A DNA stretch of 64,000 bases. Origin: Paenibacillus sp. GP183 (GTDB taxonomy: Bacteria; Bacillota; Bacilli; Paenibacillales; NBRC-103111). Position 1 is the first letter of the stretch; each line of letters starts with the position of its first letter. The stretch is from positions 558,001 to 622,000 of the forward strand of contig NZ_FNSW01000001.1 in NCBI RefSeq assembly GCF_900104695.1. The letters run 5' to 3'. Shown in pieces: positions 1,128 to 4,640 of this stretch. The position numbers and the translations under genes were made by a program. The notes under the pieces are model-generated. The model searched no databases. It was given only the letters and a program-made list of their open reading frames with translations, and was not told where the DNA came from.

Positions 1128-1569
1128 CTTCCAGGTGCAAATTAAACGATTGCCTGGCAATGAAGATATTGCGTTGCCTAAGAAAATGTCAGAAGCGGCA
1201 AGCGGCTTCGACCTTCATGCGGCAGTAAGCGAAACGGTTGTACTGCATCCTGGAGAGCGCCAATTGGTCCCTACAGGATTTGCCTTAAGCATGCCTCCTG
1301 AGCTGGAAGCACAGATTCGCCCGCGCAGCGGTCTGGCCTACAAGCACGGGATTACGACGTTGAATTCACCAGGAACGATCGATGCCGACTATCGAGGCGA
1401 GGTCAAGGTGCTGCTTATCAATCACGGGCAAGAATCCTTCACCATCCAGCGCAATGAACGTATCGCGCAGATGGTGTTTCAGGTTGTTCCCGTCATTGAG
1501 CTCACTGAGGTCGATGAGCTGACTGAGACGGAGCGCGGCTCCGGTGGATTTGGACATACGGGGAGGTAA
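1114..1569 (+). CDS. dut: dUTP diphosphatase (dUTPase)
   Basis: Hydrolyses dUTP to dUMP and pyrophosphate, supplying dUMP for dTMP synthesis and keeping uracil out of DNA. All five trimeric dUTPase motifs are present in order: [32 protein letters not shown] and the glycine-rich C-terminal arm [11 protein letters not shown] chose the TTG at 1114 because AGGAGGG lies 7 nt upstream; this gives 151 residues, the normal length. An in-frame ATG at 1054 would add 20 residues from inside mlpA and has no ribosome site. The start overlaps the end of mlpA by 14 nt. Confidence 0.95.
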
Positions 1570-1639
1570 CCTCCCTCTTGACCCACCTGTAAATTGATCT
1601 CTTTTAAAATCTTTTTCTCACACCCAAACCTACCTTTCA

Positions 1640-1730
1640 ACCATTTTGCACCCACCCAAACCCTCCCTCTAGGGAGGGCCCCAAAGGGCGGCAGCCCTCT
1701 GGACACCCGCAAAGTTGGATAGGGAGTGAA
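1640..1730. repeat. GC-rich intergenic element with inverted repeats
   Basis: CCCTCCCT and AGGGAGGG form a tight inverted repeat around 1661-1677, followed by GGGCGGCAGCCCT. The composition differs from the flanks. It looks like a dispersed palindromic intergenic repeat of the kind scattered in Paenibacillus chromosomes; that is inference, since no second copy is in the window. Minus-strand ORFs across it look like by-products. Confidence 0.35.
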
Positions 1731-1871
1731 GTTGGCGCATGAAAGAGGACTTTGTTTAATCAAGCCGCTTTAGTCCCTGCGGGACACGCTCTTTCTCGTA
1801 ACAAATCCTTTAAATCCCCACTAAAGACGTAAATTATGTCTTATCATAAGCCAGTAATCAAGTAATAAAGG

Positions 1872-1910
1872 AAACCTCCAATCATAGTGAGCTATGGATT
1901 GGAGGTTTTT
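1872..1910 (+). terminator. intrinsic terminator downstream of dut
   Basis: Stem AAACCTCCAATC (1872-1883) pairs with the arm GATTGGAGGTTT, followed by a T run on the plus strand. Since dut ends 300 nt earlier, it probably terminates the mlpA-dut transcript after a long 3' tail. Confidence 0.7.
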
Positions 1911-1923
1911 GGCATTTGTTGAT

Positions 1924-1942
1924 AAACGCGGTCGCTCATCTT
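1924..1942. repeat. 19-bp motif, copy 1
   Basis: AAACGCGGTCGCTCATCTT occurs here and again, identically, at 54884-54902. Both copies are intergenic. CTCATC inside this copy can pair with GATGAG about 17 nt downstream (1955-1960). The function is unknown. Confidence 0.5.
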
Positions 1943-2157
1943 AACCTTGAAATGGATGAGAGATGCATGCTCGCGAAATTTGAGGAAAATTGCCTTATAT
2001 CAGCAACCATGTGGTTCTCCCAACATAAGTCCAAATACTTCCTTTATCATCTCAAATCACAGTAAACGGAGAATATACGTTCCATACCACCCTCACAAAG
2101 CACTATACACATTCGATTTAGTTGAAGTGCCCTAGACGAATGCCCACAGAATTTTCC

Positions 2158-2829
2158 TCACAATGGAACCGCATGATCCTCATTCCCGCTATGCGTGAAT
2201 GCCTCCGGCTGCTTCACCGAAGCCTTCGAATATAGCCGCAAAGCGTAGATATAGATCAGATCAAATACAGAGCAGAAGATACCCAGCACCAGAACCAGCT
2301 TATTGCCATGCAAAACGCCGATCGAAATCGTTGGAGCTAACGTACCCAGCCATTTGCATACCGCTATGACCTGATTTTGTCCCTGCGTGCTTTTTCTTGC
2401 GACCAGCATGCAGATAAACAGAACGGACATGATCAGATTCTGGAGAAAGGCCGAATACTTCGGGGCGTTGTCACCGAACTCGACGATAAAAGAGTACTGA
2501 AGTACAAAGGACATGGCAAAGATGAGGATGGACCATGGGATAAAGTTATGTTTCAAGAGACCGAATTTCTCGAACTCTTTTCTTCCATATCGAAAGTAAG
2601 TGGTAACAATGGCGATGTCGAACAGGACCCAGACTAGATTGACCCAACCCTGCACGGGGATGGTGGGGGCAGTTAAGTCCTTGAAGGTATAAAGCCCCTC
2701 CCAAGTCACGTTCAGCGCAAGGGCGAAAAGGGGCATGCCGTAGGTTTTCTCTTTGAAGCCTATCCGAACCAATTCCAGATAGACAACGGTCCAACATATT
2801 CCGCTTAATAATAGCAGCAGCATTTCCAT
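2158..2829 (-). CDS. Pyr4/PaxB-like integral-membrane terpene cyclase
   Basis: 223-residue protein that is almost entirely hydrophobic, with about seven predicted membrane helices. The N-terminal part (W13, YLELVRIGFKEKTYGMP at about 17-33, then ALNVTWEGLY with W43 and E44) and a late helix with FDLIY (D190) match my memory of the transmembrane terpene cyclase family known from fungal meroterpenoid clusters (Pyr4, PaxB). In Pyr4 one Glu in the second helix and one Asp in the last are essential; E44 and D190 here sit at comparable places. Start at 2829 is supported by AGGAGA upstream; the longer frame to 2955 would run through the regulatory palindrome. It is divergent from a TetR gene, so probably repressed by it. 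No prenyltransferase or other terpenoid gene is next to it, so the substrate cannot be named. Confidence 0.6.
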   Translation of the reverse strand: MEMLLLLLSGICWTVVYLELVRIGFKEKTYGMPLFALALNVTWEGLYTFKDLTAPTIPVQGWVNLVWVLFDIAIVTTYFRYGRKEFEKFGLLKHNFIPWSILIFAMSFVLQYSFIVEFGDNAPKYSAFLQNLIMSVLFICMLVARKSTQGQNQVIAVCKWLGTLAPTISIGVLHGNKLVLVLGIFCSVFDLIYIYALRLYSKASVKQPEAFTHSGNEDHAVPL

Positions 2830-2856
2830 GATAATCTCTCCTTTTAAAGTGACGGT

Positions 2857-2870
2857 GTTACATTTGTAAC
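2857..2870. promoter_or_regulatory. palindromic operator candidate between cyclase and TetR genes
   Basis: Perfect inverted repeat GTTACA-TT-TGTAAC lies between the divergent cyclase (start 2829) and TetR gene (start 2954). TetR-family repressors normally bind such palindromes in the shared intergenic region. The assignment is inferred from position and symmetry. Confidence 0.55.
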
Positions 2871-2953
2871 GTTCTATGAGTTGAATATATACTGTATCTA
2901 TGGGGCTGACAAGAGAGCCGGAGCGTACTGTGACAAAAGGGAGGAATTTGTTC

Positions 2954-3505
2954 ATGAAGGGGCAGGAGCAGAACGCGCAGAATCAATTTGCAAAGGAATG
3001 TATATATACCGCACTCATGCAGCTGATGGAAACAACAAGCTTCTCGGATATCTCCATCACGGAGATTACGAGAAAAGCCGGCGTATCCAGAATGGCGTAT
3101 TACCGCAATTACGGCTCCAAGGAAGACATCATAATCCAGTATCTCAATACGCTTTTTCAAGTATACCTGGAGGAAATCCGCAGCTATGGACAAGTGGACG
3201 TCTTCCAATTCGCTTACCTGTATTTTGCCTACTTCAGGAAGCATGAGGTGCTGATCAAGAATTTGCTCCGTTCAAATCTATGGAATCTGCTGCTGGACAG
3301 ATTCGATACCTACCTGCACTCCATATTCGCTGGACTCTTGACGCACGACATCACCTCGCCGGAGATGAAAGCATATGAGGTCCATTTTCTGGCTGGAGGA
3401 CTGTACAAAATATTAATCGAATGGGTTCAAAACGATATGGCCCAGAGCGATGAGGAGATGGCTGCACTCATCTGCAAGCTGGCACCTTCAAGTAATCAGA
3501 ATTAG
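2954..3505 (+). CDS. TetR/AcrR family transcriptional regulator
   Basis: 183 residues. The N-terminal helix-turn-helix reads FSDISITEITRKAGVSRMAYYRNYGSKEDI in segments typical of TetR, with the recognition helix around VSRMAYYRNY (residues about 40-50). The C-terminal half is helical, hydrophobic and divergent, and resembles the TetR_C_8 type ligand domain. The ATG at 2954 has GGGAGG 9 nt upstream; the in-frame ATG at 2900 has none. Its gene is divergent from the membrane terpene cyclase, with a 14-bp palindrome between them, so it probably represses that gene and possibly itself. Ligand unknown. Confidence 0.85.
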   Translation: MKGQEQNAQNQFAKECIYTALMQLMETTSFSDISITEITRKAGVSRMAYYRNYGSKEDIIIQYLNTLFQVYLEEIRSYGQVDVFQFAYLYFAYFRKHEVLIKNLLRSNLWNLLLDRFDTYLHSIFAGLLTHDITSPEMKAYEVHFLAGGLYKILIEWVQNDMAQSDEEMAALICKLAPSSNQN

Positions 3506-3558
3506 TGAAAACATGAAAACGGGATTTTTCATTCTAAAGCGTTTATAGTAAATAAAAG

Positions 3559-3606
3559 CAGCGGCTTTCTAAGACTTTATTTTAGAGTCCTAGTCCGCCG
3601 CTGTTT
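3559..3606 (+). terminator. terminator of the TetR gene
   Basis: CAGCGGC (3559-3565) pairs with GCCGCTG (3597-3603); an inner stem CTAaGACT with AGTCcTAG extends it. A short T run follows. Confidence 0.75.
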
Positions 3607-3674
3607 CCTGCTATCCGAAAGTTTGATTTCCTGCATCCCCAATCCACAACAATCCTCCAACAGCATTGGCTGTC

Positions 3675-3702
3675 ACCCATCCATAGGCTGAATCATACAA
3701 TA
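3675..3702 (+). promoter_or_regulatory. sigma-K promoter for dpaAB
   Basis: CATACAATA at 3694-3702 is an exact fit to the sigma-K -10 consensus CATANNNTA, with AC of the -35 (CAC, 3674-3676) 17 bp upstream. It lies 38 bp before the dpaA start. The B. subtilis spoVF operon is transcribed by mother-cell sigma-K, so sequence and known biology agree. Confidence 0.75.
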
Positions 3703-3740
3703 TCCAAGTGATATGTACCGAGAAAGGGGTGTAAGCGAGA

Positions 3741-4640
3741 ATGCTTACTGGCATATCAGTTGCTTTCATGGGCGGTGACGCGAGACAGCTGGAAGTCATT
3801 CAGAGGTTTACCGAGCTGGATGCAACTGTGTTTTTATTTGGTTTTAATAACCTGGGACGTCAACTCAGCGGAGTCACGAATTCGGAACCAAGCGCCGAGC
3901 TTTTGAAGCAAATTGACGCTTTCATTCTCCCTCCGGTAGGGACGGACGATACGGGTCGGGTGGAATCGATATTTTCCCATAATGAACTTGTTTTAACGGA
4001 TGAAATTATTGGAGCGCTGCCTTCACATGCCAAAGTATATACCGGGATGGCCAAAACTTATTTAAAGCGGCTGTGTCAAGAGCACAACATTTCTGTCATT
4101 GAGCTTTTTGACCGTGATGATGTGGCCATTTATAATTCAATTCCTACCGCTGAGGGAGCGCTCATGATGGCGATCCAGAATACGGACATCACGATTCACG
4201 GATCGGTATGTATGGTGCTCGGGTTTGGCAGAACGGGCTTTACCATGGCCAGAACACTGCAGGGATTAGGGGCCTCCGTGAAGGTAGGCGTCAAGCAGCC
4301 GGATCACTTTGCACGTGCATGGGAGATGGGTTTTCAGCCCTTTTACACAACTGATTTATACACAGAAGTAGCCAATATTGACTTGCTTTTTAACACAATT
4401 CCGACTATGATAATCACAGCACAAGTTATCACTAATATTCCGCATCGCGCGGTGATCATCGATTTGGCCTCCAAGCCTGGCGGAACGGATTTTCGTTTTG
4501 CTGAAAAAAGAGGTATCAAAGCGATGCTTGCACCGGGCTTACCTGGAATTGTCGCTCCCAAAACTGCTGGACGTATCATAGCGAATGCGCTAAGCCAGTT
4601 ATTAGAGGAGGACTTCAAGGACAGGAGCGATGCAGAATGA
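3741..4640 (+). CDS. dpaA: dipicolinate synthase subunit A
   Basis: 299 residues, the normal length for SpoVFA. With DpaB it oxidises the lysine-pathway intermediate made by DapA to dipicolinate, the spore-core chelator, in the mother cell. The N-terminus contains VAFMGGDARQLEVIQ, and the central Rossmann part contains VCMVLGFGRTGFTMARTLQGLG (about 155-176), an NAD(P)-binding GxGxxG-like loop. The start ATG follows AAAGGGGTG. The stop overlaps the dpaB start by 4 nt. A sigma-K promoter lies directly upstream, and asd, dapG and dapA, which make the substrate, follow. Confidence 0.95.
   Translation: MLTGISVAFMGGDARQLEVIQRFTELDATVFLFGFNNLGRQLSGVTNSEPSAELLKQIDAFILPPVGTDDTGRVESIFSHNELVLTDEIIGALPSHAKVYTGMAKTYLKRLCQEHNISVIELFDRDDVAIYNSIPTAEGALMMAIQNTDITIHGSVCMVLGFGRTGFTMARTLQGLGASVKVGVKQPDHFARAWEMGFQPFYTTDLYTEVANIDLLFNTIPTMIITAQVITNIPHRAVIIDLASKPGGTDFRFAEKRGIKAMLAPGLPGIVAPKTAGRIIANALSQLLEEDFKDRSDAE

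Follow-up and report, generated by a model that had tools for sequence, protein, structure and literature searches.

We identified two divergent genes in a 64-kb stretch of the Paenibacillus sp. GP183 genome (the whole stretch analysed, hereafter the window) that encode a membrane protein of the Pyr4 family and a TetR-family regulator. According to our preferred explanation, which we hold with roughly even confidence and mostly from comparative sequence analysis, the pair would be a horizontally acquired two-gene module in which a TetR switch governs a stand-alone Pyr4-family acid catalyst acting on an isoprenoid. The family match, the conservation of the predicted catalytic residues and of a palindromic site between the genes, the absence of the pair from the same locus in relatives and its position within a mainly clostridial clade are described below, together with the alternative explanations to which these data give rise.

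The membrane protein and its conserved residues

The gene at 2158-2829 (minus strand, ATG at 2829) encodes a 223-aa protein that matched the Pfam profile PF25129 (Pyr4-TMTC) at 89.5 bits against a cut-off of 27, over residues 4-167. This places the protein in the Pyr4 family by sequence, in agreement with the Pyr4-type identity that the first-pass annotation had read from the DNA alone. The longer listed open reading frame that reaches 2955 is an upstream extension of the same gene; the ATG at 2829 is preceded by the ribosome-binding-like AAAGGAGAG, and both genes of the pair are preceded by sequences of this kind (by eye). PF25129 was the sole model listed in a Pfam search at E≤10, in which the HMMER filters discard most matches above about 0.1, with no PQ-loop, MtN3 or KDEL-receptor profile appearing. 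The best NCBIfam score was 8.9 bits against a cut-off of 207, hence nothing usable, and no PDB sequence was matched when the protein or profile A2 served as query, a result that leaves room for relatives there.

Conservation was analyzed in an alignment of 60 sequences including the GP183 protein, all of them chosen by their similarity to it. One sequence (L076) is without the N-terminal half, leaving 59 that cover the N-terminal positions, and L140 (19.8 bits, stops inside) and the fragments G083:C124 and G182 (below the cut-off) were not included. The first-pass annotation had pointed to E44 and D190 as the essential acidic pair, which we take to be E63/D218 in Pyr4 numbering, and both proved to be conserved: E44 is glutamate in 58/59 covering sequences and glutamine in the other, and D190 is aspartate in all 60. 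Since the PF25129 match ends at residue 167, the assignment of D190 comes from our own alignment and not from that of Pfam. Additionally, W13, Y17 and W43 (59/59 each), N40 (58/59) and Y193 (60/60) are conserved, N131, S135, Q151 and K159 are likewise invariant, and D71 is aspartate in 59 of the 60 sequences. A paralogue in genome G021 (L008, 1462-2088) carries both E44Q and D71N, a natural acid-less variant, and a second copy about 4 kb from it keeps both acids.

These positions coincide with residues mutagenised in DmtA1, as described in PMC6173783. W29, Y33, N56, W59, E60, D214 and Y217 of DmtA1 correspond to W13, Y17, N40, W43, E44, D190 and Y193 of the GP183 protein with identical spacings; in that study the W29A, Y33A/F, W59A and E60A/Q mutants are inactive, N56A and Y217A are poorly active and D214A has very low activity. 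Furthermore, DmtA1 is proposed to protonate a plain alkene, for which the extra acid D94 is needed, and the conserved D71 is a candidate counterpart of the extra acids (D94, E133) linked to alkene protonation. Judged from its sequence, the GP183 protein likely works as a terpene cyclase.

The TetR gene and its predicted operator

The divergent gene (P0002; 2954-3505, plus strand) encodes a TetR-family regulator of 183 aa, which scores 25.8 bits for TetR_N and 52.1 bits for TetR_C_8 and so exceeds the Pfam cut-offs of 24 and 26.1, respectively. Its reading frame opens at 2900, and ATG 2954 is the likelier start because the Clostridium orthologue starts there. Between the two genes, 27 nt upstream of ATG 2829, lies a predicted TetR operator, GTTACA-TT-TGTAAC (2857-2870), whose arms are both perfect and whose 2-bp centre is itself not palindromic. 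The divergent regulator and the perfect palindrome noted in the first pass are therefore both borne out, and the site recurs in three other loci (L064, L129 and L077; see below). A promoter scan gave TTGTCA-17-TATATT (2884-2912, minus strand) for the Pyr4-like gene and TTGTAA-18-TATACT (2864-2893, plus strand) for tetR. Both are promoter-like as consensus matches only, and the two sites compare with a shuffle mean of 0.4. The operator starts 13 nt downstream of the -10 of the first, and its right arm is overlapped by the -35 of the second, so that one operator could shut both genes. Rfam gave no match over its gathering score in 1500-3800.

The palindrome has no other match at two or fewer mismatches in the window (chance mean 1.28) and no second exact copy in the 5.83-Mb genome, in which a backward control pattern also occurs once. 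Its count alone is thus unremarkable, and it stands above chance because of its position and conservation. In this regard, an orthologous divergent pair is present in a Clostridium MAG (G687, locus L064), with 98/178 identical residues in the TetR protein and 55% identity in the membrane protein, and the site GTTACA-AG-TGTAAC is found between its two genes. A promoter-like TTGATA-17-TATAAT precedes the operator there by 14 nt, in an AT-rich stretch in which six such sites were found and 2.4 were expected. We scored 20 upstream regions of the clade, leaving out L080 (truncated gene), L139 (37% identity) and L140. The site is matched at 12/12 positions in GP183, L064 and L129 and at 11/12 in L077, in all cases at a distance of 23-27 nt from the start codon. 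A 9/12 site that retains GTAAC in full is present 26 nt upstream in L002 and L004, and the remaining 14 regions score 6-9 of 12, with no clear site. Among 10,000 Markov resamples a score of 12 was never reached, and 11, 10 and 9 were reached in 0.05%, 0.6% and 6.9%, respectively. L129 was fetched only after the site had been proposed. A count of the exact pattern across the 11 carrier genomes gave one copy in G000 and one in G687, each between the pair, two copies each in G689 and G690, on contigs other than that of the gene, and none in the other seven; these 0-2 occurrences per genome, against 0-2 for the backward control, are at chance.

Two further and more distant divergent pairs, at L083 and L006, have TetR_C_8 regulators and other sites, TTGACA-CC-TGTCAA (31 nt upstream) and TTGATA-TA-TGTCAA (5/6 pairs; 21 nt upstream), respectively. 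The recognition helix of these regulators reads SRQTFY, versus SRMAYY in GP183 and L064, so the site appears to differ along with the recognition helix, a comparison of two against two that is suggestive only. A divergent P0002-like TetR gene is found in four of the 20 clade loci (GP183, L064, L083 and L006) and another TetR gene in L068, and the other 15 have none adjacent, which indicates that the switch is not obligatory. L068, on a Streptomyces plasmid, was not counted as support, its adjoining TetR having TetR_C_31 and its site scoring 6/12. In L129 (genome G1091) a perfect operator-like site (1458-1471) lies upstream of a Pyr4-like gene with no adjacent TetR. No P0002-like TetR gene was found near the TetR-less loci L129 and L077 in the stretches examined: those of G1091 held no P0002-like regulator, and the sole TetR-like genes in those of G941 were two others, at about 41 bits. 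The regulator of the L129 site may act in trans. The neighbours of homologues from the host's own family vary, and in 20 contexts a TetR-like gene adjacent to the Pyr4-like gene or in its vicinity was seen by eye twice (L041, L054), hence the pairing is not family-wide. In L080 (8510-9508, genome G955) a Pyr4-like gene without its N-terminal part abuts a divergent TetR gene, in what looks like a decayed pair. Altogether, the arrangement of the GP183 locus and the recurrence of its site give comparative support to a probable regulation of the membrane gene by the neighbouring TetR protein.

Predicted fold and a possible transport function

The AlphaFold2 model of the membrane protein is of moderate confidence (7 sequences in the input, mean pLDDT 76.9, pTM 0.67) and shows six helical segments, one of which, at 54 residues (91-144), has room for two spans. 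The seven helices given in the first-pass annotation are thus compatible with the model and not proven by it, and the length of 223 aa stands. In a Foldseek search of the PDB, SWEET chains were the top 3 of 216 matches at E≤10 (E 0.047-0.10, prob 1.00), and no match reached E 0.001 in the PDB or in the viral structure library, whose top five comprise two entries named PQ loop repeat protein and three nameless ones. Among the best 50 rows of VIA-align, the first 18 belong without exception to SWEET, KDEL receptor, cystinosin or SemiSWEET structures, at Z 12.1-7.8, and row 19 is at 7.3, scores to be read knowing that helical bundles can give Z near 12 by chance. As to whether the protein belongs to some other membrane family, a question already raised in the first pass, profiles give Pyr4 only and the predicted fold best matches SWEET/PQ-loop proteins. 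An internal repeat as in PQ-loop proteins (residues 1-88 against 112-206) was also sought and rejected, since at an hhalign score of 10.91 it was equalled or surpassed by 27/60 column shuffles. We regard the likeness of the predicted fold to SWEET/PQ-loop/KDEL-receptor proteins as a lead. No paper proposing a relation between the Pyr4 and PQ-loop folds was found among the matches listed, and PMC11109268, which covers Pyr4, mentions no PQ-loop, SWEET transporter or KDEL receptor. If true, the relation would join a terpene cyclase family to a transporter/receptor superfamily.

Because the predicted fold is transporter-like, a transporter of this fold under TetR control is a live alternative and the main rival of the catalyst that we favour, though on balance an unlikely one. 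The protein would then be a small-molecule exporter or flippase of the PQ-loop/SWEET fold, using E44, D190 and K159 for proton coupling or substrate binding, and the Pyr4 cyclases would have branched off from this fold as enzymes. Many efflux genes are under TetR control, and a stand-alone gene with a TetR neighbour, carried by clostridia and in 5 of 11 carrier genomes unaccompanied by a UbiA match, would suit this function, and so would the structural matches. However, those matches come from a model built on just 7 sequences, their Z scores near 12 are within the helical-bundle range, none reaches E 0.001 in Foldseek, and neither a PQ-loop Pfam model at E≤10 nor a repeat between the N-terminal and C-terminal halves accompanies them. 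Furthermore, all of the residues whose loss kills or cripples DmtA1 (PMC6173783) are kept.

Substrate and pathway context

Our search of the surroundings gave no terpenoid family among the 30 larger flanking ORFs, which span about 20 kb on each side and the window up to about 24 kb, and no conserved partner enzyme for the Pyr4-like gene was found. From gene order, uppS and dxr are presumably located further upstream. UbiA, searched at E≤0.001, is present in 6/11 carrier genomes, the GP183 genome having three matches over the cut-off, and had no match in the other five (G687, G689, G691, G860 and G955). Of these five, G687 and G691 are MAGs, G689 is a draft and G955 has a truncated copy of the Pyr4-like gene only; the copy in G860, however, is on a 5.1-Mb contig, about as large as that genome. 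Clostridia are strict anaerobes. Since several carriers are clostridia, in which oxygen-dependent epoxidation should be unavailable, the clade in its entirety is unlikely to use an epoxy-polyprenyl substrate. The plain alkene proposed as the site of protonation in DmtA1 (PMC6173783) makes a stand-alone olefin-protonating enzyme possible, and by analogy the GP183 protein could be one.

These data weaken the accessory terpenoid or meroterpenoid role suggested in the first pass. In that role the protein would be the cyclase of a route of prenylation, epoxidation and cyclisation whose other genes are elsewhere in the genome, which we consider improbable. The family and the catalytic residues would fit, as would the three UbiA matches of the host and the homologue located near an isopentenyl phosphate kinase gene on a Nostoc plasmid, but no such gene is found among the flanking ORFs and UbiA is unmatched in five carriers. 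In addition, Pyr4-like genes of this orphan type are common, because a filter for terpenoid genes nearby kept 264/1,107 bacterial Pyr4-like candidates in a 2026 survey, 843 having failed it (PMC13307353). Actinomycetota make up 69% of the filtered set, and the main text of this survey does not state what the 843 orphans do (PMC13307353).

On the Nostoc plasmid p057_N (L069, 6001-7821) a Pyr4-like gene is about 0.4 kb from the isopentenyl phosphate kinase gene, and on the Streptomyces plasmid NZ_CP107787.1 (L068, 7375-13895) a 52%-identical homologue overlaps the TetR_C_31 gene; located 4 kb on is a gene annotated as hydroxyneurosporene dehydrogenase, whose AsqO_C and Diels-Alderase matches are below the cut-off.

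Origin of the gene pair

The pair lies within the dut-dpaA interval, which measures about 2.2 kb in GP183 (1570-3740) and 121 bp in G001, a genome of the same genus. Both dut and dpaA were scorable by tblastn in 26 of 29 other relatives, and the pair is absent from the gap in 26/26, consistent with the insertion into a core locus that had been claimed. The accompanying statement that related genomes usually carry ymxH there was not confirmed: no evident ymxH was seen by length and by eye in any of the 26 gaps, of which 17 are under 255 bp and so too short for it, and the gap exceeds 1 kb in two relatives (L094, L106). About 590 bp with no evident gene (1570-2157) separate dut from the Pyr4-like gene and are unmatched at the same-genus site. 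The repeats found in 1560-3745 are a 28-nt direct repeat in two copies that are 75% alike and a terminator-like 27-nt inverted pair (1857-1923), and nothing there resembles a target-site duplication. The GP183 pair adjoins dipicolinate synthase genes. In the Clostridium MAG G687 (L086, 239-3919) the pair has as neighbours two genes that match APH or choline kinase and that we take to resemble spore-coat CotS kinases.

PF25129 was detected in 31/104 genomes of the host's family and in 36/296 from its order (35 over the cut-off). With the GP183 protein as query, its own genome was the only one to match among 398 drawn from the phylum, and matches were obtained in 5/391 genomes from the class of a Clostridium genome and in 16/206 of the family of that Clostridium, G1226 being marginal and G1139 just 37% identical. 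The relatives at 46-59% identity are located at clostridial loci, in a Gemmiger MAG, on the Streptomyces plasmid and in G197, a single genome from the order of the host. In a 50-row tree these relatives and the GP183 protein form a clade of 12 rows (support 100/99), and a clade of 34 rows holds all the host-family rows except the GP183 protein, plus three of the order. The mainly clostridial clade, together with the absence of the pair in 26/26 relatives, makes the pair look horizontally acquired. A pair acquired in this way, now with no current role and decaying, is very improbable: the patchy presence of the gene, the N-terminally truncated copy in G955 (L080) and the E44Q/D71N paralogue in G021 would agree with decay, but in GP183 both frames, the key residues, the site and the ribosome-binding-like sequences before both genes (by eye) are intact.

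Proposed mechanism and comparison with known systems

Returning to the acquired module of switch and catalyst, we infer DNA binding, direction of regulation, catalysis and substrate as follows. A TetR-family repressor would sit on GTTACA-N2-TGTAAC, shortly after the point at which transcription of the membrane gene is predicted to begin, and as the same operator overlaps the -35 of tetR's own promoter, one site would block both divergent genes. The repressor would be released by a small ligand, which is probably the substrate or a signal for it. The membrane protein would then act as an acid catalyst of the Pyr4/DmtA1 type, in which E44, held in place by W13, Y17, N40 and W43 and assisted by D190 and Y193, would protonate an isoprenoid chain at an alkene, not at an epoxide, and so trigger cyclisation or hydration. 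Outside any clustered meroterpenoid pathway, the protein would modify an isoprenoid lipid or another lipophilic compound on its own. A broader and doubtful idea is that the SWEET/PQ-loop fold has the Pyr4 cyclases as one enzymatic branch, and that this mainly clostridial and partly TetR-switched clade is an autonomous inducible module working with neither oxygen, UbiA nor a cluster, on an isoprenoid that its hosts own (e.g. a polyprenyl carrier lipid) or meet outside. To our knowledge no Pyr4-family member has so far been found in use outside natural-product assembly, and this one would be the first if the broader idea is true. The GP183 pair offers a compact orphan case with a probable operator and regulator, in which the inducer could point to the substrate.

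Among known systems, Pyr4 itself, the fungal pyripyropene cyclase, shares with the GP183 protein the curated PF25129 profile match and the conserved acidic pair. Pyr4 is encoded by a clustered fungal gene and its substrate is an epoxide made with oxygen, whereas the GP183 gene is bacterial and unclustered. The SWEET, SemiSWEET, KDEL receptor and cystinosin proteins of the PQ-loop superfamily are alike in predicted helical arrangement but have no sequence-profile match and differ in function. With the TetR_C_8 regulators (PF14278) the GP183 TetR protein has in common both TetR domains over cut-off and a gene divergent from its likely target; it differs from the known ones in its partner, a Pyr4-family gene, a combination for which no publication was found among the matches listed (a weak test). 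DmtA1, the drimentine membrane terpene cyclase of Streptomyces youssoufiensis, shares its size class and the seven mutagenised residues with the GP183 protein, and its seven predicted helices are compatible with the GP183 model (PMC6173783). The neighbours of DmtA1 are a CDPS and a phytoene-synthase-like prenyltransferase, in contrast to the TetR gene alone in GP183. Lastly, ZigF, XiaH, TylF and GroF are bacterial members of the same family that sit in biosynthetic gene clusters (PMC13307353), whereas the GP183 gene is an orphan from a mainly clostridial clade.
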